Virus record (IMG/VR): IMGVR_UViG_3300017737_000037
Coordinates: 1-34,123 of that record
Direction: 5' to 3' (one strand)
DNA: 34,123 nt
Source: a virus
In this document: piece by piece, positions 5,376 to 31,615 of the stretch
Numbering within the stretch: the first letter of the stretch is position 1
How the letters are laid out: each line of letters begins with the position of its first letter
Translations under genes and position numbers: made by a program
Notes under the pieces: model-generated
Databases searched by the model: none
The model's input: the letters and a program-made list of their open reading frames with translations, nothing else
What the model was told of the DNA's origin: nothing

Positions 5376-8300
5376 ATGATACAAACAGGGTTTGAAAGAA
5401 GGGTTAAAGTACAACAAGTAATTGAGAGTCAGTTACCCGAATTTCTTAGATCCGAAAGTCCAAAATCTATTGACTTTCTGAAGCAATATTATATTTCTCA
5501 AGAACATCAGGGCGGTGCTACTGATATTGTTGAGAACTTAGACCAATATTTAAAATTTGATAACCTTACACCAGAGGTTGTCACTGGATACACCAGTTTG
5601 ACTGCTGGTATATCTTCTACTGCAGACACAGTTCAGGTTTCTACAACTAAAGGGTTTCCTGATGAATATGGTCTTTTTAAGATTAATGATGAAATTATCA
5701 CTTATACTGGAAAAACTGCAACTTCCTTCACTGGATGTGTAAGAGGTTTTAGTGGTATTTCTTCTTATCGTTCTTCTCTTGATCCTGAGGAACTGATATT
5801 CAGCGACACTTCAGAAGAAGTTCATGCTAATGGTTCTACTGTACAGAATCTCAGTGCTCTGTTTCTTAAAGAGTTTTACAGAAAATTAAAATATTCTTTT
5901 GCTCCTGGTCTTGAAGATGTTGATTTTGTAGATAATTTAGACGTTAATAACTTTCTTAAGGAGATAAGAAGTTTATATGAATCAAAGGGAACAGAAGATT
6001 CTTTCAAAATTCTCTTCAAAGTTCTTTATGGTGTAGATCCAAAGGTAATTGATTTAGAAGATTATCTAATAAAACCTTCAGCAGCAAAGTTTAAAAGAAG
6101 AGAAGAAGTTGTTGTTGAGAGAATTTCTGGTGATCCAAATAAGTTAGTTGGACAAACAATTAGAAAGTCTACTGATAGTGCAACTCAAGCTTCCATATCA
6201 GAAGTTGAAATTTTTACCAATTCTGGTATTAGCACATATTACAAACTTGGATTGTTTGTAGGTTTTGATGATAAAGATTTAATTGAAGGAACATTTAAAG
6301 TTCAACCAGCCACGAAAGTAGCAAATACTGTTAGTGTCGGTGCTTCTGTAATAACAGTTGATTCTACAGTCGGATTTGCCCAAACTGGAAAGATTATTGC
6401 TGGAGAAAATACAATTGAATATGCAGATAAAACTGTAAACCAATTTCTTGGATGTAGTGGTATTGGAACTGCAATTACCTCATCAACAGAACTTAGAACC
6501 GATGAAGTTTATATTGGTTATGAAGATGGTGATATTTCTAAGAAAGTAGAAGTTCGTATTGGTGGAGTTCTTTCTGAGTTCAAAGCGACGAATGACATTT
6601 TACTTTCTAATGAGGGTCAAAAGATATTTGTCAAAAATATTGGTGAAAGAATCAAAAATCCAGAACTGAATAAGACTGATAAGCAAATATTTGCTAATAG
6701 TTGGATTTACAACACAAGTTGTAGATTTGATGTAGAGAGCATCAACGGTGCCACAGTTCAATTGAAGAGTGAAATTGATGATTCTAGTCTCAAGGTTGGA
6801 GATACTGTAGATATTCTAAATGGATCTACAGAAACTGTTCTTCATGCAAACGCTGTAGTTGCTACGGTTAGTGCTACAAACAAACAAATTACCCTTGATA
6901 ATCTTGTAGGATTCACTGCTAATTCCACAATAATTTACACAATTAGAAGAAAACTTGAAACCGCTACCAGTAGTGGTACTCCACTGTTCTATGGTGATAA
7001 TACAGTCACCACTGATGTTCAGAATGTATATACGGATGACGCTCATGCATATGTTGCTTCAAACTCTTTACCTTCATATGACATTAGCGAAACTGCTCTG
7101 AGCGCAACTCTTGCGTCTGCTGCTGGTAATGCTCTCCAAGGATTTGATTCGTCAACACAGAAGTATAGTATTATCTCCTTTGCATCTCCAGTACCTTTCG
7201 TAACTGGTGATGAAGTCTTCTATAAAGCATCCTCAGACACCCTTGTAGGACTCCCTGAGGGCGTTTACTTTGTTGAAGTACTATCCACATCCAATCAAAT
7301 CAAACTCTTTGCCTCTAGGTCTCTGATTGAAGGGGGATCCTCTTTAGAATTTACCTCTGCTGGGGCAGGAACACACAAATTTGTTCTCGCATCTCAAAAG
7401 AGTGAAGCAATTTATCCTCAACAATTACTGAAAAAATTCCCAATCGTCAGAAATATCAAAGACGGTAAAGGGACATCAACTATTCCTGGTTCTACAGGAA
7501 TGTTAGTTAATGGTACTGAAGTTGTAAACTATAAGTCAAATGACAAGATTTACTTTGGTCCAATCAAAAATGTAAGACTTTATAATGGTGGTAAAAACTA
7601 CGATGTAATAAATCCACCAACTATTGAAATTGGTTCTCCTGGAGCTGCTTATACCACTGCTCTTGTAAGACCTGTGGTTCGTGGTAGTGTAACTGAAGTA
7701 CAAATTGACCCGCAAGATTTTGATTTAGTAGATGTTACTTCCATCACCATTGATGGTGGTAATGGATCTGGAGCAGTCTTGCAACCAATATTAGAGACCA
7801 GATATCGTGAGATTGAGTTTGATGCTCGTTTGACTTCTGGTGGCGGTGCTATTAGCAATACTAACGATACCATTACTTTTGTAAAACCACATAATCTGAG
7901 AAACGGTGATGCTATTGTCTATAGTAGAAATGGTAATAATGCAATTGGCATTGGAACTTTTGGTGGTTCAAACAGTCATCAAGATAAAGCATTAGCAAGT
8001 GGATCTGTATACTTTGCACAAATTGTCAACCCAACAACAATTAAGTTGTATGAAACTTTTGAAAATTACTCAAGTGGTATCAGCACAGTAGGATTTACTA
8101 CTACTTCTCAAGGTACTCATAAATTTAGATTATTTGATGGTAAGAAAAATATTAGTGCAATCAAAGTCACAAACTCTGGAAGTGGGTATGAGAACAGACA
8201 ATTAAAAGTTAAGTCTGAAAATATTTCTTCTGTAAGTGATTCAATTACTTTCAATAATCATGGATTCTTGGATGGAGATAAAATTCTCTATGCAACAGAT

Positions 8301-11300
8301 AATACTGCTGTAACTGGATTATCCACCAATGTGCAGTATCAAATATTAAAAATTGATGATCACTCTTTCAGACTTGCAAATGCTGGAGTTGGTGGAACAA
8401 ATACAACTGATTACACCAAGAGACAACATGTTAACATTACTGATGTAGGAATTGGAATTCAAAACTTTGCTTATCCTCCGGTAACAATTACCGTTAATGC
8501 AGAGTTTGATGGTGTATCTGGAGTTATCACAGCAACTCCATCTGTAAGAGGTGAGATTGTTGATCTTTACTTGTATGAAACTGGAACTGGTTATGGTTCA
8601 AAAATCCTAAACTTCCACAAAAAACCAGACATTAAAATTAAAAATGGTAAAAATGCCGAATTGAAACCACTTATTTCTGGTGGAAAAGTTGTTTCTGTAC
8701 AAGTTACTAATTCTGGCAGTGAATATTCATCTGCTCCAGATCTTAAAGTTGAGGGTGAGGGTGTTGGGGCAAAACTTAGAGCCATCGTTAGTGGTGGAAA
8801 AATTACTAATGTTGTAGTTCTCACTGGTGGTATAGGTTATTTTCAAAATACCACTTCAGTAGTCGTAACTTCCGCTGGTTCTAATAGTGTTGTTGATGTT
8901 GAAGTTAGAGATTTAGTTTGTAATTCTCATACTAGGTTTGGTGATGAAATTTTAGTTGAAACTGCAGAAAAACTTGAATATGGATTGGTAGGATATTCCA
9001 CTGCTATTGGTGCTGATACTTTTGGTGATATTGGCGGAACACATTCCCCAATTATTGGTTGGGCATATGATGGTAATCCGATATATGGTGGTTATGCCTA
9101 TACAGATCCTTCAGATGTAAACTCAGGTATCAAAATTTTAACAAGTAGTTACGAATTGGCAACTACGGAAGTTTCTGATAGACCTTCTGGATTTACTGCT
9201 GGATTCTTTGTAGAGGATTACAAGTTTACAGATTCTGGTGATCTTGATGAGCACAATGGAAGATATGCTAAAACCCCAGAATATCCTAATGGCGTTTATG
9301 CTTATCATTCTACAATTACTAGTGATGGAAAAAATAGTAAGTTCCCGTTCTTTATTGGTGGATCTTATTCTTCTGTTCCAGTAACTCAAAATATTAATCA
9401 AACATTTGACTTTAACTCTTCAGACTTACGAAGAAATACACTCCCTTATGTTGCTGGTGATAAATTTGCTACTAATGATTTTGTTTCTGAACCAAATGAA
9501 GTTCTGACTCAAAGTGCTGTTATTGATTCTATTGTCAGAGGGTCTGTAGACGGATTCAAGATTAATAATTCTGGTACAGATTACAGAGTTGGAGAAACTC
9601 TAACGTTTGATAATGAAGGGACTAGTGGTGGGGGACTGTCTGCATATGTTAGTAGAGTCACTGGTAAGTCTATCGTAGATGTGACTACTACAATTCAAAG
9701 TCATCAAAATGCGATTCTTGTTTGGGAGAAGAGTGGTGCAGTATCTGTCAACGTAGATCCATTCCATGAATACTTTGATAACGATCAAATTGCAGTTTCT
9801 GGACTTTCTACATTCATTTCTGGACTTACAAAATCTCACAAAATTGGAGTTTCGTCAGAAAGAACTCGCCTTTCAGTTCAAGTCGCGGCCAATTCCTCAG
9901 TTGGTTTTGTTACTGATATCTTCGTTAATAGAATTGTTGACTCCGTTTCTGTAGGTAGCACTCTGGGGATAGGCACAGAGACTTTATCTGTTTTGGGTAC
10001 ATATCCAGAGAAAAAAGTAATTAGAGTCTTGAGAGGCATTGTAGGTGCCGCACACACTGCAAACAGTGATGTATTTGTGTCTCCGAGTAAATTTACCTTA
10101 CCTGTAAATGTCTCATATTTTGACTCGTCTGTAAATGACAAAGTATTCTTCAATAGTATCCAATCTGTAGGTATCGGGACTACTACTGGAGCATCCTCTT
10201 CAAAAGGATATTTCACTGGAAGTCTCCATTATACAATTTCAGTACCAACTCAGGGGATTTACCTACCCAACCACCCCTTTAAAACTGGTGAACAAGTTAC
10301 ATTTGAAAGATTTGCAGGTTCACAAGGATTTACAGTTTCTAATACTAATACTAGCGCAACTTATAGTATTCCACAAAGTGGAAACACTCAAACCTTATTT
10401 GTAGTCAAAAAGACTGATGATATCATTGGTCTTTGTACTCAGGTTGGTCTTACCACGAATACTGAAGGTGTGTATTTCAGAAATATAACGTCCAACGCTG
10501 ACAGTAGGGACTACAGATATTCTCTTACCTCAAATAAAACTCAAGTAACTGCCAAAGTAGAAAAAATTAGAGCAAAAGTTGCCGTTTCTACAGCACATGG
10601 TCTTATTAATGGTGATGTTGTAAATCTGAGTGTAAATTCGGAACAATCAGTCGGAATTGGAACATCAGTTTCCGTATACCTCAAGTACAACTCTGCAAAC
10701 GATAAGTTACTTATTAATCCAATCGGATTCACTTCAACTGCGGTAAACACTTCTACAAATAGATTGACTCTCACTGAGCATGGTCTCAAGACAGGTGATA
10801 AGGTATTTTATGATTCTAATCTTATTATATCTGGTCTTTCTACCGGTTCTTACTTTGTTTATAGAATTGATGATAACACTATCAATCTTGCAAATACAAG
10901 GTTTGATACTATTTCTAACCCACCATCCGTAGTAAGTTTTGGATCTACTGGTGGTTCCAGTCAAGAGTTATCTGCAATCAATCCAAGATTAAATCTTGTT
11001 AGAGATAACAATTTGGTATTTAATGTAAATGATTCCTCCTTGAGTGGTTACAACTTTAGACTTTACTATGATAGTGATTTCAAGAATGAATTAGTTTCTA
11101 TTGGTTCTTCTACAACCTTTAGTACAGTGAGTGTTGGAACTGTTGGTATTGCCAATACAGTAACTGCATCAACAGTCACTCTTAACTTCAATAAGAACCT
11201 TCCATCTAAAGTTTACTATCAACTGGATAAGGCAGGATATATCAGTACTGCTGACACAGAAGTTACAAACTATTCTGAAATTAATTTCATTAATAGCACA

Positions 11301-14300
11301 TATTCTGGAACGTATAGTGTCACAGGAGTTGGTGAAACAGCATTTACTGTCTCGCTCAAGAACGTTCCGGAAGATCTTGACTATAATCAATCATCTACAA
11401 GTGTTCTTAAGTATTCCACCTCTTCACCAAGATCTCTTGGTGGTGTTGACAAACTGGAAATCACTTTTGGTGGAGCCAGTTATAAGAAACTTCCTAAGTT
11501 TGTAAGTATTGCATCCACTGCAGGTATCAACGCAGATATAATTCCTACATCCACAACTCTTGGTAGAATCAATCAAGTTACAATACAAGATACGGGATTT
11601 GATTTTTCTGCAGACAAGACACTCAGTCCAGAAGTTTATATTTCACCAAATATTACAGTTGTTAATAGAAATACCGTTTCTGGTATAACAATAACATCTG
11701 GTGGTTCTGGATTCACTTCCCCTCCAGATCTTGTTCTTGTTAATCCTGATACAGGATCTGCTTATGATAATGGAACTCTGATTGCAAAGATGCAGGGTTC
11801 ATCTATCAATAAAATTGAAATACTTGATGTTCCCAAGGGTCTTTCTGACACAGAATCTAAAGTATTCTCTGCAAATAATAGTAATGGTGTTGGTGTTAAT
11901 AGTGTTTTCTCGTCACCTGCAGGCGTTGTAACATGTGTTCTTGCAACTCCAACTCTCGGATTTACAACTTCTACGGCACCATTTTCTATAAACGACTTTG
12001 TATATGCCGAAAATATCTCCTTAGCATCTACTACAGGTACAGGATTCAATTCCCAAGATTATTCTTACAACTTCTTCAAAGTAACAGCATACAGAAATAC
12101 CAACCCTGCAGAGGTTGAATTTGATATTTCCCCATATGCAACTAATGCTGGTGTTGCTCAAACAGATGGACAAAGTACTTTTGCTACTCTTATTAATAGG
12201 AACGACTATCCAACATTTACTGTTGTACAAACTCCTTTAGAGTTTATTGTTGGAGAATCACTCTTTATTAAGTCTGGCAATACTTATATTGGAATAGATC
12301 TTATAGTCACCAATAATCTTAATGATGCTATTAAGGTTTATGGAACTTATGAATTAACTAAAAATGATGTGATTGTCGGAAAAAATTCCGGCACAATAGC
12401 AACTATCAATAAAATTGATGAAAATACTGGTATATTTGAAGTTGATTACTCTCTTGAGACTGATTATGGTTGGGCAAATGACACAGGTAAGTTAAATGAA
12501 GATTATCAAGTTATTCCCGACAACGACTATTATCAGAATCTTTCATATAGCATAAAGAGTCCAATAGAATTTGAGGACTGGGTAAATCCTGTTAATAGAA
12601 TGCTTCATTCCTCCGGATTGAAAAATTTTGCTGACACCGGAATTACATCAGAAGGAAAAGTCTCAGCAACGAGCAGATCTGCAAATAGTAGTGCTTTAAT
12701 TGATATTATCAATCTAAATGCTAACGGAACTACAATGAGAGTTGATGCTATCAACTTCTTTGATTTTGGTATTGACATTGATGTATCAAATAACAAGTCT
12801 AAGTTTATTAAGTTCCAAAATAAGAGACTTTCTGATTATATTGAATGTAAGACTAATAGGGTTCTGACGATTGATAACTTCAACAGTCAATTCTCTAACC
12901 AAGAGAATGCTAATACGACTCTGTATCGTGATATTGATAAGTTTATTGATAATGATGGATATAGTAGATATTTGATTCAGATGATCAAACCTAATAGCAA
13001 AGATCTTCAGGCAACTGAGTTAATTGTTGTTAATACAAAAAATGATGATTTGATCACTGTTGAGAAAGCATCTATTCATAACACGAAAGATGACCTTGTT
13101 GATATTGAAGCGATTAAAGATGCTTTTAATAACGTTTCACTGAGATTGACACCAGATGATCCTTTTAATGATGATATAGATGTTAAATTTATAAAGAACA
13201 ACTTTAACACCACTCTTGCGGGCATTTCTACACAATCTATTGGATTTGTCAATTTGATCGGAAATAATGTTTCTGTTGGTGTTGGTTTGACGGGATTAGT
13301 TTTTGAAGGTTCTTCAAGTGGAACTGAATCCATATTTGCAAATATTGAACTTATTGACACTGTTACTAACGATAAGACGATTGTTGATATGTTTGTTGAT
13401 CATGATGGAACTGATACTTACAGATCAGACTTTTTCTTTGATAACAGCACTTTAGGATACTCTCCCAAGTTTATTGGAACTTTCACCAGCAACATCGCAT
13501 CTGGTGTCCTTAAGTTGAATTTTGAGAACACCGAGTCTAATGATGTTCTTGTTCGCTCTAGGATTGTTGGATTCAATACAGTTGGTGCTGGAATTGGCAC
13601 TCATATATTTAAAGCAAGTGGTCAACCGGACAGTTCTGTTAAAGAGGGTCGCCTTGAAACGAAATTCTCCACATTCTCAGGAACTGGAATTTCTACAGTA
13701 TTGACTTATGATAAGGCAGATGTAACAACAGTGAAATCTACTGCAAAAGTATCTTATGGTAATACATCTGCATTACATCAAGTCTTATTTAATCATAATA
13801 ACATAAATGCCTTTACAGTACAATATCCACACCTTTCTATCGGTAGCACGATGGGTATTGGTACATTTGGTGCTGATATTAATGGTAGCAATTTCGTTCT
13901 AGTATTCCATCCAGATGCTAACATTAGTGATGATATTACTGTTCAAATTTACAGTGAAATCATTCAAACTGAGAAAGATTTGAATAATGTTCCGGCAACA
14001 TTAACTTACGGATCTGCAAATGAACAACTGAAAACTTCTCAGTATGATTCTATCAATGGTGATAGAACTAACAAGGTTGACTTTGATGTTAAGCACAACA
14101 GTGTTCCAGTATTTGAAAAGCAATTTAATCCCGGTACTTCTACTGTTGTCAATCTTGGAACAGGGGTATTCACAATTGCTGATCACTTCTTTAGTAACCG
14201 TGAAAAACTAACATACACGCCAAGATCTACTTTTGTAGGTGGTGCCTATACTTCCATGGTTATGTCCAATGGAAATGCTCTTCCTTCCACAGTTTACGCT

Positions 14301-17246
14301 ATTAAGACGAATAATAATGAGTTTAAACTTGCTACTAGTAAAACTGGTACAGCAGTTACATTCAACTCTGCTGGAAGTGGAAATGGACATACTCTTGAAA
14401 TGGAGAAGAAACTTGAGAAATCTTTGATTACCATTGATGGTGTCTCAAGATCCCCTCTGGCATTTACTTCAATCAACTATACTCTCAATAATAACGGTGG
14501 ATCTATCTCTATTGGTGCAACATATTTTGGTATTTCTGGAATCTCTTCCATTCTTCCAGGAGATGTTTTGAAAGTTGATGATGAGTTTGTCAAGGTTAAT
14601 GCTGTTGGTCTTGGAACTACAACTATTGGTCCTATTACAGGAACAGGTTCTTTCAACGTTGTCAAAACTGAAAGAGGATTTGTTGGAACTTTAGCAACCA
14701 CACACACTGACGGATCTGCCATCAGAGTTTTCCAAGGTTCTTACAATATGACTAGAAGTAAGATTCACTTCACTGAAGCACCTAGAGGTAATACTCAAGA
14801 ACTGGTTGATAATAGTAACATTCCATACCATAAGTCCACCTTTAACGGCAGAGTATATCTGAGAAATGATTATGCGTCCAACCAAATTTATGATGATATC
14901 ACTAGACAATTCACTGGTATTGGTGCGACCTATCGTCTGACGGTTGGTGGTGCTAATACAACAGGTATTGAAACTGGTAGTGGTTTGGTATTCATTAATA
15001 ATATGTTCCAAACTCCAACCACTGACAACAACACTGGAGGAAACTATAGTTTCACTGAAACTGGCAGCACATCTAATTTAGTGTTTACCGGAGTAAAAGA
15101 TTCAAATGATGATCTTATAATTTCCGAAACTGATGTAAACAAGAATCAACTTCCAAGAGGTGGGATGATTGTTTCACTTGGTTCCACACAGGGTCTTGGA
15201 GTTGCTCCTCTGGTTGGTGCCTCTGTAACTGCTTTTGTGTCTGGTGGTGTAATTCAGACTATTGGAGCTGGTGCTACTGATATTCTTGGTTCTGGATACC
15301 GTGGAACGGTTGCTATTGGAATCACTGATCCAAATCATAATGGTAACGCCGCTGCTGTTACCGTTACAGTTGGTGCTGGTGGATCTCTTGCATTCAATGT
15401 AACAAATGGAGGTACTGGATATAGTTACAATCCAACCATTAATATTCCATCTCCATCATACGAAAATCTTTCCATCACGGGCGTATCTCGTCTTGGTCAA
15501 GGTGCTACAACCGATACTGGCAGCGGTCTTCTACTTAATGTGGAAGTTGGTGCTGCTATAACATCAGTTGGAATTGGTTCTACTCTATTTGAAGTTAAAA
15601 ACTTTAAGATTGTTAGAAACGGATATGGATTTAGAATTGGTGATAAGTTTAAACCAGTGGGTCTTGTAACTGCCAAGGGTCTTCCTGCAATGGTCAATGA
15701 ACCAGAATTTGAAGTTCTGGATGTCTTTAATGATAAATTTGCCGCTTGGCAATTTGGCGAACTTGATTATATCGATTCAATCTCCAATCTTATTGACGGA
15801 TCTCGCGTCAGATTCCCGTTAAATTATAAAGGAGAACTTGTAAGTTTTGAAGTTGATAGGAATGATCCAGATTCTTCGGCGATTGATCTTGAAGCAGTCC
15901 TTCTGATCTACGTAAATGGTGTAATTCAGCAACCCAATGTTCACTATCAGTTCGTTGGTGGTACATCAATTGTATTCAAGACTGCGCCAACTGCAAACGA
16001 TAATATTGATATCTTCTTCTACAGAGGAACTAGAGGAACTGATAGTGTTAGCGTAAATGTTAACACTTCTGTTGAAACTGGAGACCTTCTGCAAATGCAG
16101 AAGACTGAAAACAGTCTTGCTCAAGATCCAAGAACAATTTACAACATCAATAACTCTGATAAGGTAGAAACTAATATCTACGCTGGTCTTGGCATCGATG
16201 AAACTAACTTCAAACCACTTAGTTGGATTAAGAAGAAGGTAGATCAGAGACTTGGTGGCGAACTTGTTAACAAGTCTAGAGATTCTATTGAAGGGCAGGT
16301 TTATCCTACCGCAAGAGTTATTGGAGATATTTCTGCATCTGCTACTGAAATATTTGTTGATGACGCACAATTCTTCAATTATGAAGAAAATGAATCTTCT
16401 ATTAATATCACCAGTGTCAATGGATTACTTGTTAATACATCAACAGAACATGTATCTGCTGCTGTCACTGCTGTAGTCTCTTCAACAGGAACCATTAGTT
16501 CCTTGGATGTTACTGAAGGAGGTGCTGGTTACTCTGGTTCAGCAACACTTAAGATCGCTGCACCGAAGGCAGTGGGTGTTGGTATTGGTACAACTGCTAC
16601 CGGTACGGTCGCTATTGTTAATGATTTTATCAACTCAGCATCTGTAACCAATGCTGGTTTTGGATATACCCGCACAGCACCTCCACAGGTTCTGGTTTCT
16701 GCTCCAGCACTTTCTGTTGAAACTTTAACTGGAATTACCGCTGTCGCTGGTTTTGCTGCGACAATAACTGGTATTTCCACAGCAGTTGGAACTGGTGGAA
16801 ATAATCTTGCCCTTGCGTTTAGTTTCACGGCATCTAACACTGCAGGACTTCAAGAAGGTTATCCAATCTTCGTTAAAAATACTAGTATTGGTAATGGTGT
16901 TAGATCCATTAACAGTTCCGATAATTCAATCGTAGCTATCGGAACAACATTCCTGGACAACGTTTACATCATCAACGACCTTCACACAACTGCGACGACT
17001 GGAGTTGCAACTTGTAACATTCTTTCTACTACTACGCATACGGGTCTTACTACGACAGGTAGTTTGACGGTTCCACAAGGAACACTCTCTTGGGGCAGAC
17101 TTTCTGGGTTTACCAGAGCATCTTCTCCAATCGCTATCGGTGTTACTGGTTTGAGAGTTGATGCTGGATTATCAACATTCCCCACTATCCAAAGACGGGG
17201 ATTCGGTTTGAGAGACAATGGATCTCTCAGAAAGGACCTGGGATAG
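5376..17246 (+). CDS. Giant modular baseplate protein (VrlC-like, gp7 position)
   Basis: A 3956-aa protein preceded by a good ribosome-binding site (AGAGGA, ATG after 8 nt). By position, between gp6 and gp8, it takes the place of T4 gp7 (1032 aa); cyanophage versions are often called VrlC. The N-terminus (residues 1-200) is a conserved helical head. Then come many beta modules. At least four clear HG/HN-x(4)-GD modules start at residues 839, 962, 1741 and 1802, with weaker ones near 610 and 2937. More than ten GxGY-type repeats are spread from residue 737 to the end. A YHYH-like domain lies at about 1222-1330 (GWAYDGNPIYGG at 1228). The segment at 2385 (YYQNLSYSIKSPI) is conserved in such proteins. 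The C-terminus ends GFGLRDNGSLRKDLG. No transmembrane segment is seen. It is probably the outer wedge scaffold or part of the fibre network; the role is inferred. Confidence 0.85.
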   Translation: MIQTGFERRVKVQQVIESQLPEFLRSESPKSIDFLKQYYISQEHQGGATDIVENLDQYLKFDNLTPEVVTGYTSLTAGISSTADTVQVSTTKGFPDEYGLFKINDEIITYTGKTATSFTGCVRGFSGISSYRSSLDPEELIFSDTSEEVHANGSTVQNLSALFLKEFYRKLKYSFAPGLEDVDFVDNLDVNNFLKEIRSLYESKGTEDSFKILFKVLYGVDPKVIDLEDYLIKPSAAKFKRREEVVVERISGDPNKLVGQTIRKSTDSATQASISEVEIFTNSGISTYYKLGLFVGFDDKDLIEGTFKVQPATKVANTVSVGASVITVDSTVGFAQTGKIIAGENTIEYADKTVNQFLGCSGIGTAITSSTELRTDEVYIGYEDGDISKKVEVRIGGVLSEFKATNDILLSNEGQKIFVKNIGERIKNPELNKTDKQIFANSWIYNTSCRFDVESINGATVQLKSEIDDSSLKVGDTVDILNGSTETVLHANAVVATVSATNKQITLDNLVGFTANSTIIYTIRRKLETATSSGTPLFYGDNTVTTDVQNVYTDDAHAYVASNSLPSYDISETALSATLASAAGNALQGFDSSTQKYSIISFASPVPFVTGDEVFYKASSDTLVGLPEGVYFVEVLSTSNQIKLFASRSLIEGGSSLEFTSAGAGTHKFVLASQKSEAIYPQQLLKKFPIVRNIKDGKGTSTIPGSTGMLVNGTEVVNYKSNDKIYFGPIKNVRLYNGGKNYDVINPPTIEIGSPGAAYTTALVRPVVRGSVTEVQIDPQDFDLVDVTSITIDGGNGSGAVLQPILETRYREIEFDARLTSGGGAISNTNDTITFVKPHNLRNGDAIVYSRNGNNAIGIGTFGGSNSHQDKALASGSVYFAQIVNPTTIKLYETFENYSSGISTVGFTTTSQGTHKFRLFDGKKNISAIKVTNSGSGYENRQLKVKSENISSVSDSITFNNHGFLDGDKILYATDNTAVTGLSTNVQYQILKIDDHSFRLANAGVGGTNTTDYTKRQHVNITDVGIGIQNFAYPPVTITVNAEFDGVSGVITATPSVRGEIVDLYLYETGTGYGSKILNFHKKPDIKIKNGKNAELKPLISGGKVVSVQVTNSGSEYSSAPDLKVEGEGVGAKLRAIVSGGKITNVVVLTGGIGYFQNTTSVVVTSAGSNSVVDVEVRDLVCNSHTRFGDEILVETAEKLEYGLVGYSTAIGADTFGDIGGTHSPIIGWAYDGNPIYGGYAYTDPSDVNSGIKILTSSYELATTEVSDRPSGFTAGFFVEDYKFTDSGDLDEHNGRYAKTPEYPNGVYAYHSTITSDGKNSKFPFFIGGSYSSVPVTQNINQTFDFNSSDLRRNTLPYVAGDKFATNDFVSEPNEVLTQSAVIDSIVRGSVDGFKINNSGTDYRVGETLTFDNEGTSGGGLSAYVSRVTGKSIVDVTTTIQSHQNAILVWEKSGAVSVNVDPFHEYFDNDQIAVSGLSTFISGLTKSHKIGVSSERTRLSVQVAANSSVGFVTDIFVNRIVDSVSVGSTLGIGTETLSVLGTYPEKKVIRVLRGIVGAAHTANSDVFVSPSKFTLPVNVSYFDSSVNDKVFFNSIQSVGIGTTTGASSSKGYFTGSLHYTISVPTQGIYLPNHPFKTGEQVTFERFAGSQGFTVSNTNTSATYSIPQSGNTQTLFVVKKTDDIIGLCTQVGLTTNTEGVYFRNITSNADSRDYRYSLTSNKTQVTAKVEKIRAKVAVSTAHGLINGDVVNLSVNSEQSVGIGTSVSVYLKYNSANDKLLINPIGFTSTAVNTSTNRLTLTEHGLKTGDKVFYDSNLIISGLSTGSYFVYRIDDNTINLANTRFDTISNPPSVVSFGSTGGSSQELSAINPRLNLVRDNNLVFNVNDSSLSGYNFRLYYDSDFKNELVSIGSSTTFSTVSVGTVGIANTVTASTVTLNFNKNLPSKVYYQLDKAGYISTADTEVTNYSEINFINSTYSGTYSVTGVGETAFTVSLKNVPEDLDYNQSSTSVLKYSTSSPRSLGGVDKLEITFGGASYKKLPKFVSIASTAGINADIIPTSTTLGRINQVTIQDTGFDFSADKTLSPEVYISPNITVVNRNTVSGITITSGGSGFTSPPDLVLVNPDTGSAYDNGTLIAKMQGSSINKIEILDVPKGLSDTESKVFSANNSNGVGVNSVFSSPAGVVTCVLATPTLGFTTSTAPFSINDFVYAENISLASTTGTGFNSQDYSYNFFKVTAYRNTNPAEVEFDISPYATNAGVAQTDGQSTFATLINRNDYPTFTVVQTPLEFIVGESLFIKSGNTYIGIDLIVTNNLNDAIKVYGTYELTKNDVIVGKNSGTIATINKIDENTGIFEVDYSLETDYGWANDTGKLNEDYQVIPDNDYYQNLSYSIKSPIEFEDWVNPVNRMLHSSGLKNFADTGITSEGKVSATSRSANSSALIDIINLNANGTTMRVDAINFFDFGIDIDVSNNKSKFIKFQNKRLSDYIECKTNRVLTIDNFNSQFSNQENANTTLYRDIDKFIDNDGYSRYLIQMIKPNSKDLQATELIVVNTKNDDLITVEKASIHNTKDDLVDIEAIKDAFNNVSLRLTPDDPFNDDIDVKFIKNNFNTTLAGISTQSIGFVNLIGNNVSVGVGLTGLVFEGSSSGTESIFANIELIDTVTNDKTIVDMFVDHDGTDTYRSDFFFDNSTLGYSPKFIGTFTSNIASGVLKLNFENTESNDVLVRSRIVGFNTVGAGIGTHIFKASGQPDSSVKEGRLETKFSTFSGTGISTVLTYDKADVTTVKSTAKVSYGNTSALHQVLFNHNNINAFTVQYPHLSIGSTMGIGTFGADINGSNFVLVFHPDANISDDITVQIYSEIIQTEKDLNNVPATLTYGSANEQLKTSQYDSINGDRTNKVDFDVKHNSVPVFEKQFNPGTSTVVNLGTGVFTIADHFFSNREKLTYTPRSTFVGGAYTSMVMSNGNALPSTVYAIKTNNNEFKLATSKTGTAVTFNSAGSGNGHTLEMEKKLEKSLITIDGVSRSPLAFTSINYTLNNNGGSISIGATYFGISGISSILPGDVLKVDDEFVKVNAVGLGTTTIGPITGTGSFNVVKTERGFVGTLATTHTDGSAIRVFQGSYNMTRSKIHFTEAPRGNTQELVDNSNIPYHKSTFNGRVYLRNDYASNQIYDDITRQFTGIGATYRLTVGGANTTGIETGSGLVFINNMFQTPTTDNNTGGNYSFTETGSTSNLVFTGVKDSNDDLIISETDVNKNQLPRGGMIVSLGSTQGLGVAPLVGASVTAFVSGGVIQTIGAGATDILGSGYRGTVAIGITDPNHNGNAAAVTVTVGAGGSLAFNVTNGGTGYSYNPTINIPSPSYENLSITGVSRLGQGATTDTGSGLLLNVEVGAAITSVGIGSTLFEVKNFKIVRNGYGFRIGDKFKPVGLVTAKGLPAMVNEPEFEVLDVFNDKFAAWQFGELDYIDSISNLIDGSRVRFPLNYKGELVSFEVDRNDPDSSAIDLEAVLLIYVNGVIQQPNVHYQFVGGTSIVFKTAPTANDNIDIFFYRGTRGTDSVSVNVNTSVETGDLLQMQKTENSLAQDPRTIYNINNSDKVETNIYAGLGIDETNFKPLSWIKKKVDQRLGGELVNKSRDSIEGQVYPTARVIGDISASATEIFVDDAQFFNYEENESSINITSVNGLLVNTSTEHVSAAVTAVVSSTGTISSLDVTEGGAGYSGSATLKIAAPKAVGVGIGTTATGTVAIVNDFINSASVTNAGFGYTRTAPPQVLVSAPALSVETLTGITAVAGFAATITGISTAVGTGGNNLALAFSFTASNTAGLQEGYPIFVKNTSIGNGVRSINSSDNSIVAIGTTFLDNVYIINDLHTTATTGVATCNILSTTTHTGLTTTGSLTVPQGTLSWGRLSGFTRASSPIAIGVTGLRVDAGLSTFPTIQRRGFGLRDNGSLRKDLG

Positions 17247-26967: not shown

Positions 26968-29103
26968 ATGGCTGCTCCTGTATTACAGTTCAAGAGAGGT
27001 CTCTTTAGCAATTTGCCAGCATTAAGGGCAGGTGAGCCGGGATTTACAACCGACAAATATGACCTATATGTCGGGATTGACTCGACAACTTCAAATAATA
27101 AATTCGTAGGTTCAGGTAGATTCTGGACTGTTGAGGGTGCCACTAGTGGATCTGGTGTCAATCTTGTAGAGGGTACTAATAACGGTACGAGTTACATTAC
27201 GCTTGCATCTCCAGCATCTTTAGCTGGAATAGTAACGTACTATTTCCCCGGAACTCAAGGTGGGGCAAGTAGTGTTCTTACCAACGATGGAAGCGGAAAT
27301 TTAAGTTGGGGTGCTGGTTCTGCTAACTCAGTTCTGACTGGTGTTACTACAGTAACAGGTCACCTTGATATTGACTCTACAGTCGATATTTCTGGTATCA
27401 CAACATTCTCTAATACCACTGATAATACTCTTGGTAATGTCAACACTGGTAGTGTTCAACTTGATGGTGGTCTAGGCGTTGCCAAGAACGTTACTGTTGG
27501 TGGAAACTTAAACGTCCAGGGATATGCCGAGTTTGTTGGTGTTGCCACATTCAAAGGTGGAACAATCAACCTTGGTGATGCTGATACTGACGACATCAAC
27601 GTCGGTGGTGAGTTCATTTCAAGTCTTGTACCTAACGCAGACAAATCTGTTGATTTAGGTGAGTTTGATAAGCAGTGGAGAGATGTATATGCTGGTGGTT
27701 CTGTTTATGGATATGAAAGTTTAGTAAGCACTGAAGCTGCCAATACTACAGTTACATACACTGTTACTGTTGCCTCTAAGACTGCTAATCACAGATACAA
27801 CGGTAGTGGTTCTGGTTCCGGATACTATATTGATGGGTCTGAATCTCCATTCATTACTCTTGTACCTGGCGTAACTTATCGCTTTGATCAGGCAGCAGGT
27901 TCTAATAGCGGTCACCCACTTCGCTTCTATCTAGAAGCACAAAAAACCACTGGTTATACCACAAACGTAACAACTAGTGGTACTGCTGGTAATGCTGGTG
28001 CTTATACTGAAATTACAGTAACTGACACTACACCTCAGGTTCTTCACTATCAGTGTGCTTCCCACGGTTTGATGGGTAATGCTGTTTCCACCCAATCTAA
28101 CGTAGTTCATAATAACTTCCAAGCAACTTTCCTGGAAGGTATTGCTGTAACCGGTGTTTCTACCTTCACCGGTCAAATTGATGGTAATGGTGGTGCAAAT
28201 ATCTCTGGTGCAGAAACAGTTCTTTCTTCTGCAACTGTTAGTGACCTGACAGATAACAGAGTTGTCATTGCTGGTACTTCTGGTGCTCTTGAGGATAGTG
28301 CTAATCTCATATTTAACGGTTCAACTCTTGCTGTAACTGGTGATGCTACAGTTAGTGACTCCATTACGGTTACCAAAGATGGTAATATTGGTGCTGGTCT
28401 GACTGTCACTGGTGCTCTGGATGTTAACGGCGGTGCTAATATTGCTAGTGGACTAACTGTTACTGGTGGTTTAGTTGCTAACTCTGCACAAATTAGTGAT
28501 CTTACAAATAATAGAGTTGTCATTGCTGGTACTTCTGGAGAACTTGAAGATAGTGGCAATCTTACCTTTGATGGCACCACCCTTGCGGTTACTGGTGCTG
28601 CTACAGTTGATAACTTAAGTCTTAATGCAAACACAGTTACGACTTCCTCTGGTGGATTAACTCTTGATTCTGCTAGTGGTACAACCACAGTTGCTGATGA
28701 CCTGACTGTCAATGGCACATTTACCGTCCTAGGTTCTCAGTCAATTATCAATACTGAAACCTTAAAGGTTGAAGACTCTCTGATTGAAGTTGGTCTTGTC
28801 AACAGTGGTGGTAGTCTGGTAGCACCTTCTTCTGATGCCAACATTGACGTTGGTGTTGTAATGCACTACTACAGTGGTTCTGCTAAAACTGCCTCTATAT
28901 TCTGGGATGACAGTGCCGGAAGAATTGTTGTTGCTGATGCGGTAACTGAAAGTAATAGCGTAATGGGAAGTATCTCTTATGCTACTCTTGAGATTGGAGC
29001 ATTGACTGTTAGTGATTGTCAAGGAAACAGTCAAGCAGTTATTTCTTGTAGTGGATCTACAAGAAGTCTTGAAAATATAACTGTGGATGGTGGTTCGTTC
29101 TAA
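26968..29103 (+). CDS. Tail fibre-like protein with Mtd-type N-terminus and cupredoxin-like domain
   Basis: A 711-aa protein. Residues 1-55 match the major-tropism-determinant N-terminal pattern (LQFKRGLFSNLPALRAGEPG, then a YDLYVGID segment), which attaches fibres to the baseplate. Residues 55-250 are strand-rich 'ITTFSN...NVNTGSVQLDGGLGV' segments typical of phage fibres. Residues about 255-375 form a cupredoxin-like domain with ligand-type residues H316 (GHPLRF), C363, H366 and M369 (YQCASHGLM). Two 38-residue repeats, 31 of 38 identical and 85 codons apart, follow at 425-462 and 510-547. The C-terminal part (LKVEDSLIEVG, YYSGSAKTASIFWDDSAGR) is shared by many cyanophage fibres. It is bounded by a weak late promoter upstream and a strong terminator downstream. 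Likely role: a host-contact fibre at the baseplate. Confidence 0.82.
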   Translation: MAAPVLQFKRGLFSNLPALRAGEPGFTTDKYDLYVGIDSTTSNNKFVGSGRFWTVEGATSGSGVNLVEGTNNGTSYITLASPASLAGIVTYYFPGTQGGASSVLTNDGSGNLSWGAGSANSVLTGVTTVTGHLDIDSTVDISGITTFSNTTDNTLGNVNTGSVQLDGGLGVAKNVTVGGNLNVQGYAEFVGVATFKGGTINLGDADTDDINVGGEFISSLVPNADKSVDLGEFDKQWRDVYAGGSVYGYESLVSTEAANTTVTYTVTVASKTANHRYNGSGSGSGYYIDGSESPFITLVPGVTYRFDQAAGSNSGHPLRFYLEAQKTTGYTTNVTTSGTAGNAGAYTEITVTDTTPQVLHYQCASHGLMGNAVSTQSNVVHNNFQATFLEGIAVTGVSTFTGQIDGNGGANISGAETVLSSATVSDLTDNRVVIAGTSGALEDSANLIFNGSTLAVTGDATVSDSITVTKDGNIGAGLTVTGALDVNGGANIASGLTVTGGLVANSAQISDLTNNRVVIAGTSGELEDSGNLTFDGTTLAVTGAATVDNLSLNANTVTTSSGGLTLDSASGTTTVADDLTVNGTFTVLGSQSIINTETLKVEDSLIEVGLVNSGGSLVAPSSDANIDVGVVMHYYSGSAKTASIFWDDSAGRIVVADAVTESNSVMGSISYATLEIGALTVSDCQGNSQAVISCSGSTRSLENITVDGGSF
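28240..28608 (+). repeat. Pair of direct repeats within the fibre gene
   Basis: Two 114-bp units, 28240-28353 and 28495-28608, encode near-identical 38-residue segments (SDLTDNRVVIAGTSG... and SDLTNNRVVIAGTSG...). A shared run includes GTTGTCATTGCTGGTACTTC. Their 255-bp offset keeps frame, so recombination between them would remove exactly 85 codons. Confidence 0.85.
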
Positions 29104-29373: not shown

Positions 29374-30230
29374 TGGCAAAACCGTCAACACGCCAAGGGC
29401 TGATTGATTACTGTAAAAGACAACTTGGTGCTCCTGTTCTGGAGATCAACGTTGATGACGACCAAATTGATGATTTAGTTGATGATGCTATTCAGTATTT
29501 TCAAGAACGCCACTATGATGGTGTTGAGAGGATGTACCTCAAATATAAGTTTACGCAATCAGATATTGATAGAGGAAAAGCAACTAATAACTCTACAAGC
29601 ACAAATACTGCAGGTATTGTAACCACTAGTGCAACATCTACTTCCATTAGTGGATATGGAACAACAACTTCTAATTTTTACGAAACATCTAACTTTATTC
29701 AAGTACCAGATTCAGTTATTGGTATTGAAAAGATTTTCAAATTTGATACTAGTAGTATTTCTGGGGGAATGTTCAGTCTCAAGTATCAGTTGTTCTTAAA
29801 TGATATGTATTACTTCAACTCTGTAGAGTTGTTGCAGTATGCGATGACTAAAACTTATCTTGAGGATATTGACTTCTTATTAACTCCAGATAAGCAAATT
29901 AGATTTAACAAGCGTCAGGACAGGATGTATCTTGATATTGACTGGAGCAGTGTAAGTGAAGATGATTATATTGTTATTGATTGTCATCGCGCATTAGACC
30001 CACAAAATTTCACACAAATCTTTAATGATAGTTTTGTAAAGAGATATCTCACTGCATTAATTAAGAGGCAGTGGGGAGCAAACATGATTAAGTTTGGCGG
30101 AACTAAATTGCCAGGAGGAATTGAACTTAACGGCAGACAATATTATGACGACGGTGAAAGAGAAATTGCCGATATTCGTAGTCGTATGGCAATGGAATAC
30201 GAATTACCACCTCTTGATCTTATTGGCTGA
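29373..30230 (+). CDS. 13: Neck protein gp13 (head completion)
   Basis: A 285-aa protein close in size to T4 gp13 (309 aa), which with gp14 forms the collar joining filled head to tail. The N-terminal helix-rich segment (TRQGLIDYCKRQLGAP, then VDDDQIDDLVDDAIQYFQER) and the C-terminal KRYLTALIKRQWGANMIKF and GERE-ADIRSR segment fit the family. A low-complexity Ser/Thr insertion at residues 66-100 (NNSTSTNTAGIVTTSATSTS) probably forms a surface loop. It overlaps gp14 by one base (TGATG). Confidence 0.9.
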   Translation: MAKPSTRQGLIDYCKRQLGAPVLEINVDDDQIDDLVDDAIQYFQERHYDGVERMYLKYKFTQSDIDRGKATNNSTSTNTAGIVTTSATSTSISGYGTTTSNFYETSNFIQVPDSVIGIEKIFKFDTSSISGGMFSLKYQLFLNDMYYFNSVELLQYAMTKTYLEDIDFLLTPDKQIRFNKRQDRMYLDIDWSSVSEDDYIVIDCHRALDPQNFTQIFNDSFVKRYLTALIKRQWGANMIKFGGTKLPGGIELNGRQYYDDGEREIADIRSRMAMEYELPPLDLIG

Positions 30231-31615
30231 TGGCACTTAATCCCTTTTTCTTACAAGGTTCCTTTGGGGAACAAAGATTAGTACAGGAGTTGATTAACGA
30301 ACAACTCAAAATATATGGTGTTGAAGTAACATATATTCCTAGAAAATATGTTCGTAAACAGACGATTATTGAAGAAGTACAATCTTCCAAGTTTGATGAT
30401 AACTTCTTACTGGAAGCATATGTAAACACATATGATGGATATAGTGGTGCTGGTGACCTTATGACCAAGTTTGGTGTCAGTCTAAGAGACGAGTTGACAG
30501 TCACAGTATCTAGAGAGAGATTTGAAGATTTCATCTCACCTTTCCTGGATGATGAAAGTAATCAAGAAGTTGAAGTATCTGGAAGACCTAGAGAAGGAGA
30601 TTTAATTTACTTCCCACTAGGCAATCGTTTATTTGAAGTTAAATTTGTTGAGCATGAAAACCCATTTTATCAATTGGGTAAGAATTATGTTTATGAACTC
30701 AAGTGTGAACTCTTTGAGTATGAGGATGAAGTCTTTGACACCTCTATTGATGTCATTGATACTGTTCTTGAGGACCAGGGTTATATTCTTGACCTTACAA
30801 TGTTCTCAACGGGTTCTGGTGCCTCTGCGACAGCATCTGTAGGTACTGGATATATTCGGAAGATATTCCTGGATAATGATGGATCTGGATTCTCAAGCAC
30901 ACCAACGGTAGCGATCACAACAGCACCATCTGGTGGAACTGATGCTACAGCAGTGGCAATTACAACAACCAGAAATAATATCACATCTATATCTGAAATC
31001 TTGCTTACTAACGCAGGCGCAGGATATACACAAACACCAACTATTACAATTAGTGGTGGGGGTGGAACTGGTGCTGCTGCCACCTGTGGAATTATTACTG
31101 CTCATAGAGGTGTAATTTCCTTCACAATTACTAATGGTGGTACTGGGTTTACTACAGCACCTCCAGTAACAATTTCTGTGCCCCCTCTGTCTCCAGCAAT
31201 TAATGCTAGTGCTAAAACGATTGTATCTGCCGCAGGAACTATTAGTGAAATTAGAATTATAGATGCTGGTGCTGGATTCTTAGGATCTGCTCCAACCGTA
31301 ACTATTGGAACTGCCGCAACAACTGGTATTGGAACTTACTGGTTTAATGAGGTAATCACCGGGTCTAGATCTGGTATGTCTGCCAGGGTCAAGAGATGGG
31401 ATGCAGATACCAATATCCTTCGTGTTGGTCTTACATCTGGATATTTCTATGCTGGTGAAACTCTTACTGGAGCTAAATCTGGTGCTGCATACGTTATTAA
31501 AAATACTGGTGTGGCGAACACTGAGACGGATAAATACAGAGACAATGATGAATTTGAGGCGCAAGCAGATAGTCTAATTGACTTCAGCGAAATTAATCCC
31601 TTTGGAACATACTAA
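30230..31615 (+). CDS. 14: Neck protein gp14 with inserted GxGY repeat domain
   Basis: A 461-aa protein; T4 gp14 has 256 aa. Residues 1-195 are the conserved gp14 part: NPFFLQGSFGEQRLVQELIN, then VEVTYIPRKYV, and a REGDLIYFPLGNRLFEVKFV segment. After this come three GxG(F/Y) beta repeats (GSGFSSTPTVAI, GAGYTQTPTITI, GTGFTTAPPVTI and a fourth GAGFLGSAPTVTI) over residues 200-365. A further module follows (ITGSRSGMSARVKRWDADTN to TLTGAKSGAAYVI). The end, FEAQADSLIDFSEINPFGTY, is the conserved gp14 C-terminus. The repeat block therefore looks inserted between the two conserved ends. The gene has TGATG and TAATG overlaps on both sides. Confidence 0.9.
   Translation: MALNPFFLQGSFGEQRLVQELINEQLKIYGVEVTYIPRKYVRKQTIIEEVQSSKFDDNFLLEAYVNTYDGYSGAGDLMTKFGVSLRDELTVTVSRERFEDFISPFLDDESNQEVEVSGRPREGDLIYFPLGNRLFEVKFVEHENPFYQLGKNYVYELKCELFEYEDEVFDTSIDVIDTVLEDQGYILDLTMFSTGSGASATASVGTGYIRKIFLDNDGSGFSSTPTVAITTAPSGGTDATAVAITTTRNNITSISEILLTNAGAGYTQTPTITISGGGGTGAAATCGIITAHRGVISFTITNGGTGFTTAPPVTISVPPLSPAINASAKTIVSAAGTISEIRIIDAGAGFLGSAPTVTIGTAATTGIGTYWFNEVITGSRSGMSARVKRWDADTNILRVGLTSGYFYAGETLTGAKSGAAYVIKNTGVANTETDKYRDNDEFEAQADSLIDFSEINPFGTY

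Follow-up and report, generated by a model that had tools for sequence, protein, structure and literature searches.

The window, by which we mean the whole stretch of DNA that was analyzed (34,123 nucleotides, positions 1 to 34,123 of the virus record IMGVR_UViG_3300017737_000037), carries a T4-like tail module. Its genes run in the order gp6-type baseplate wedge, 3956-aa wedge protein, gp8-type wedge, 2364-aa protein, fibre-assembly-like gene and tail fibre, with gp13, gp14, gp15 and then the small terminase lying 3′ of the fibre; gp names in the window were assigned through PHROG descriptions and T4 gene order. The fibre gene is thus flanked by a putative fibre-assembly gene on one side and by the gp13/gp14/gp15 neck genes on the other, and the Methylophilales phage Melnitz-3 has a comparable gene order around its fibre. 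The features of the fibre gene are listed below, where nr75 denotes a set of relatives sharing <75% identity.

26968..29103, + strand: tail fibre gene, an ORF of 711 aa (PHROG 30742 'tail fiber protein', 3.5e-57)
26986..27075, + strand: N-terminal Mtd_N domain of the fibre, residues 7-36 (Pfam PF18454, E 3.9e-8, above cut-off)
27748..28092, + strand: cupredoxin domain, residues 261-375 (AlphaFold2 pLDDT 94.7; structure matches; profile-profile match to plastocyanin-type proteins)
27913..27915, + strand: H316, predicted metal ligand just before strand beta-4 (96.8% conserved at nr75; codon differences all synonymous in 175 rows)
28054..28056, + strand: C363, predicted metal ligand at the end of beta-7 (95.8% conserved at nr75; aligned with the cupredoxin Cys)
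28063..28065, + strand: H366, predicted metal ligand in the beta-7/beta-8 loop (95.8% conserved at nr75; aligned with the cupredoxin His)
28072..28074, + strand: M369, predicted axial metal ligand in the beta-7/beta-8 loop (98.9% conserved at nr75)

Elsewhere in the window, the gp14-like neck protein (30230-31615) contains an inserted repeat-rich region (approximately residues 194-360) that, by PHROG matches, it shares with giant structural proteins. A 226-aa protein encoded at 2251-2931 carries the PHROG label 'ferredoxin' (phrog_3704), which looks doubtful, as Pfam shows the protein without a ferredoxin domain.

A sequence-only reading of this DNA had placed at 27720-28100 a cupredoxin-like domain bearing the full H/C/H/M set. 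That interval spans the domain, whose body occupies 27748-28092, and a check of the sequence found H316, C363, H366 and M369 all at the residues originally given. The assignment itself is now backed by the predicted fold, profile alignment and conservation. The same reading proposed that a copper or other metal site might stabilize the fibre, sense redox state or bind host copper proteins; what the present data show on this point is selection for the ligand set. The domain is 12 kDa in size and contains the strings FITLVPGVTYRF and GHPLRF. C363 is its sole Cys; the fibre has two more, C684 and C694.

Run with 60 relatives, AlphaFold2 modeled the domain at a pLDDT of 94.7 and a pTM of 0.88. The model is a Greek-key beta-sandwich that matches solved cupredoxins, as expected of the cupredoxin superfamily. 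H316 lies just ahead of beta-4, C363 closes beta-7, and H366 and the axial M369 fall in the beta-7/beta-8 loop, which is the usual cupredoxin arrangement and the placement expected of a type-1 site. When the model was compared with solved structures using Foldseek, rusticyanin was matched with an E of 2.4e-4, and the top matches (rusticyanin, nitrite reductase and laccases) were nearly all copper proteins. In VIA-align, the top match was the N-terminal cupredoxin domain of 2dv6, a three-domain nitrite reductase from Hyphomicrobium (Z 9.5, 2.5 Å, 99 residues), followed by small laccases (Z ~8), rusticyanin (Z 8) and plastocyanin (Z 7.4); the rows listed were cupredoxin-fold proteins. The Hyphomicrobium denitrificans domain and the small laccases are the closest solved folds, but they belong to enzymes with further copper centres and share only ~12-17% identity with the phage domain. 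From the topology and the profile alignment we infer that the four ligands would cluster in space, the AlphaFold2 model being metal-free.

Because Z values of 7 to 8 can by themselves reflect a common fold, sequence profiles were used as further support. The phage family was aligned by HH-align with 79 plastocyanin-, pseudoazurin-, azurin- and laccase-type stretches, which had been gathered from cellular genomes via PF00127. The match was 96%, and the family's His/Cys/His fell on the copper-ligand His/Cys/His. Masking of the four ligand columns lowered the match to 35% (P 4e-4) but left the register unchanged. Reversal of the family gave 4.2%, and 60 column shuffles gave at most 4.4%, with scores of at most 18 compared to 51 for the real alignment. 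The match to cellular cupredoxins thus goes beyond the motif, since the masked alignment keeps its register and the controls are low, although the weakness of the masked match (35%) indicates that the motif itself supplies much of the 96%. PF00127-type proteins (plastocyanin, amicyanin and pseudoazurin) share the fold, the topology and the aligned His/Cys/His/Met with the phage domain, and some also share its C-x2-H-x2-M spacing, which was present in 11 of 70 cellular cupredoxin sequences measured. However, they are periplasmic or lumenal electron carriers, whereas the phage domain belongs to a virion fibre, which lacks an evident signal peptide, and has its own stretch between the ligands, YTTGVTTSGTxGxxGAYTxI. 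We also considered a host plastocyanin acquired as a metabolic gene and rejected this identity, because the domain lies inside virion proteins and its sequence is far from plastocyanin.

In searches with HMMER, whose filters discard weak matches, neither the fibre nor its domain had a PF00127 (Copper-bind) or PF13473 (Cupredoxin_1) match at E ≤10, and neither family was among the matches of 60 family members. An NCBIfam scan gave nothing significant, and single-sequence Pfam and NCBIfam scans gave no copper-protein family. A single-sequence PDB search likewise had no significant match, the best being pseudoazurin 3tu6 (E 1.2), aligned across the CxxH loop. The best Pfam match of the domain is PF25489 (At5g54830-like), a domain named for an Arabidopsis protein; the likeness consists of this sub-cut-off match (E 5e-4 to 7e-4; 20.5 bits compared to a cut-off of 27), which might indicate a shared cupredoxin family. 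A weak PF25489 match was seen in 11 of the 60 family members.

We examined conservation of the four ligands in relatives pooled from a full-domain scan, an N-terminal-half scan, a cellular-genome scan with two ligand-free patterns, cultured phages and further scans, one of which was seeded with the CxxHxxM motif and is informative for H316 only, not for C363, H366 and M369. At nr75, 91 of 95 relatives had the complete H/C/H/M set; the median of their pairwise identities is 46%, and the counts refer to mutually related database sequences. Each of the four exceptions (HSDM, DATM, AATM and KGTL) lacks two or more ligands. Taken scan by scan, the set was complete in 27/27 sequences from the full-domain scan, 35/36 from the ligand-free N-terminal-half seed and 34/34 from cellular genomes with the ligand-free patterns. 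Retention of all four ligands with ligand-free seeds and across divergent relatives indicates that the H/C/H/M set did not arise by chance.

Codon comparisons point in the same direction. The first two scans gave 175 rows, in which the codon for H316 showed 7448 synonymous pair differences and no non-synonymous ones, compared to 6027 and 172 for C363 and 6912 and 172 for H366, with the non-synonymous pairs coming from one exceptional locus (L106). Pooled, the three codons gave 20,387 synonymous and 344 non-synonymous pair differences, whereas the rest of the domain gave 425,467 and 605,042; the pairs are non-independent, so that the direction of these differences counts and the size of the numbers does not. 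As judged from its conservation and these codons, the ligand site is under strong selection. A disulphide role for C363 was rejected: one Cys per domain is the rule (57 of 59 nr80 members), which argues against such a bond, and the fibre domain has just the one.

These data also bear on the possibility that an Ig-like domain of the fibre contains CxxHxxM by coincidence. Many phage fibres have beta-sandwich domains, but the fold, the conservation and the profile alignment with its controls leave this reading with almost no probability, and we regard a chance motif as refuted by the latter two.

Related domains without ligands are also found, one of them in the window itself:

10977..11237, + strand: ligand-less related domain in the 3956-aa baseplate wedge protein encoded at 5376-17246 (profile match E 9.2e-7; ligand columns without H/C/H/M)

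The corresponding copy in the giant baseplate protein lacks every ligand in all four phages compared (the window phage, P-SSM2, Bellamy and P-TIM68), and PSS2 gp080 (L233 2492-2830), a protein of 112 aa, consists almost wholly of the domain in a form without ligands. Relatives of marine origin are found at four loci (L319-L322). AlphaFold2 modeled one ligand-less relative close to PSS2 gp080 with a pLDDT of 88.5, and this model matched only generic beta-sandwiches (best Z 4.9; the cupredoxin AcoP, 4.4). Related domains can thus manage without the ligands, and something selects for them where they are kept. The four residues could in principle be retained for the fold or for assembly contacts in a metal-free domain, and the non-ligand residues F34, G70 and Y93 (profile numbering) are indeed conserved about as highly. 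We consider this improbable, because ligand-less relatives exist and because the ligands are lost in groups, as a single site predicts.

The sequence-only reading had described the motif as recurring in other marine phage and bacterial sequences. This recurrence was confirmed and proved wider than noted, extending to gp7, gp9, many fibres and giant bacterial proteins. Among cultured phages, the domain occurs in fibres of Bellamy, P-TIM68, P-SSM2, Melnitz and Mosig, in the fibre of Pelagibacter phage HTVC028P and in a structural protein of S-TIM5; in cyanomyoviruses it lies within gp7 and forms the C-terminus of gp9. Sequences flanking the domain are unrelated among many of the fibres, and some proteins have tandem copies. 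Searches of 50,697 phage records matched 191 with the family consensus and 329 with the gp9 domain, and the names of the matched records point to Synechococcus, Prochlorococcus, Pelagibacter or Methylophilales hosts, to cyanophages or to seawater. On this sequence evidence, the domain is a mobile module that has spread beyond the present fibre. No match was found in the plasmids searched for the domain. In cyanophage gp7 (L401, L403, L404, L234 and L235), there is one complete H/C/H/M copy, for example GHPMQFS...YYYCKVHRYMSG, and a second related domain further along has lost its ligands.

Because gp9 is one orthologous gene, its body outside the domain could be used as a search query. The loci are:

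168-1388 of L235, 1-525 of L402, 1-360 of L403, and 80 loci L407-L486: cyanomyovirus gp9

With a query comprising the first 301 residues, which lie outside the cupredoxin domain, gp9 sequences were found from the body alone, and H/C/H/M was present in 83 of the 83 that extend to the ligand columns (27 sequences at 90% non-redundancy). Aligned with the same cellular cupredoxins, the gp9 domain matched at 92% and had all four ligands in register; its match to the fibre-type family was 99.6%. In S-CAM22 gp9, the ligand Cys is the protein's only Cys. Like T4 gp9, the baseplate connector of the long tail fibres, cyanomyovirus gp9 has the N-terminal gp9/10 domain (PF07880), and its gene adjoins gp7; the likeness to T4 gp9 rests on this N-terminal domain, whereas the C-terminal domain is the cupredoxin module with H/C/H/M.

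Some of the 'cellular genome' matches lie on possibly phage contigs (Prochlorococcus single cells and metagenome bins), and the clearest cellular case is the flavobacterial chromosome locus L191. Flavobacterial/Bacteroidetes contigs (L191, L193, L197 and L180/L398) encode ORFs of >3400 aa (5494 aa at L398) with one H/C/H/M copy, and the giant protein of L191, the one scanned, has DUF7507 and DUF11 repeats and a C-type lectin domain. The domain was matched in just 3 of 198 genomes sampled from the Bacteroidetes phylum.

Taken together, these results favor a reading, to which we assign a probability of roughly 0.7, in which the fibre bears a copper-capable cupredoxin domain with an intact type-1 set, and the metal would lock the ligand loop at the virion surface. 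The predicted four-residue site H316/C363/H366/M369 very probably binds a transition metal, and the metal in the virion is probably, with less assurance, mainly copper. The inserted domain would fold metal-free in the host cytoplasm, and each chain would take up one copper ion. A secretion signal is not evident in the fibre, which begins with Mtd_N, and the metal would therefore have to enter in the cytoplasm, at lysis, or outside, in seawater. Once bound, it would tie strand beta-4 to the beta-7/beta-8 loop and so fix the domain at its exposed end. Locking a surface for assembly or cell contact is a likelier task for a metal in a static particle than moving electrons repeatedly. That structural locking of an exposed contact domain is the main role is our leading suggestion, held at somewhat less than even odds. 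T4 fibres are trimers, six per particle; if the same holds here, this fibre alone would provide 18 sites.

Free copper is scarce in the cytoplasm, and cytoplasmic synthesis under this scarcity makes zinc or an empty site possible. The virion site might accordingly hold zinc, another metal or none, with copper capability both ancestral and incidental and the site kept for stability. Synthesis in the cytoplasm, with Mtd_N rather than a signal peptide at the N-terminus, would fit this alternative, as would the zinc that cupredoxin sites can take up on expression in E. coli. Yet the soft Cys/Met set, whose axial Met is retained by 98.9% of nr75 members, suits copper more than zinc, and family members show no drift towards a zinc-like set, so that we consider this alternative unlikely.

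The metal could also be active, either as a cell-surface sensor of redox state or copper, or as copper bait for host metal-uptake receptors. The domain has a complete type-1 set and is located in the fibre and in gp9, the fibre-baseplate connector, where a switch could act. Moreover, iron-binding HxH motifs have been described in fibres of phage T4 (gp37) and alterophage R22Y, together with a Trojan-horse idea for fibre iron (PMC11705849). Those fibres bind iron by His pairs, whereas the present fibre has one predicted His/Cys/His/Met site within each chain. Our analysis turned up neither a partner protein nor a receptor, and the presence of the domain in giant bacterial proteins better suits a general building block; we therefore view an active metal as doubtful. 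The broader form of this idea seems to us comparably doubtful: many marine T4-like phages would carry type-1 copper sites in gp9, gp7 and fibres, tens per particle, with the metal as a working part that either triggers fibre deployment in response to redox state or copper, or baits host receptors. We think that locking by the metal is the likeliest role, followed by a site with a non-copper metal or none in vivo, and then by active redox or bait functions.

Cupredoxins are familiar as cellular electron carriers and enzyme domains. Cyanophages infect the main photosynthesizers of the ocean, where copper is scarce and also toxic. The analysis presents a copper-capable cupredoxin as a mobile building block of virus particles, seated in a core part of the cyanophage baseplate. 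If metal is bound, the machinery by which the phage infects gains a cofactor, and a connection arises between phage particles and copper. Marine virus particles may thus carry copper, and if the metal is active as outlined above, they would also represent a pool of organically bound copper. Our search of the open literature, with most subscription journals outside its reach, yielded no description of a phage fibre or baseplate that contains a cupredoxin domain; a cyanophage/cupredoxin paper that was considered (PMC9605863) proved unrelated, its subject being Borg elements. Cupredoxins themselves and iron in phage fibres are known already. Domain databases may already label these proteins cupredoxin-like, and BFVD already includes predicted models of these phage proteins. 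BFVD matches to the model also include A0A481Z6J5, A0A481Z7Q7 and A0A481YY19, Pithovirus and Marseillevirus 'beta-sandwich proteins' with TM ≤0.78 and ~20-25% identity.
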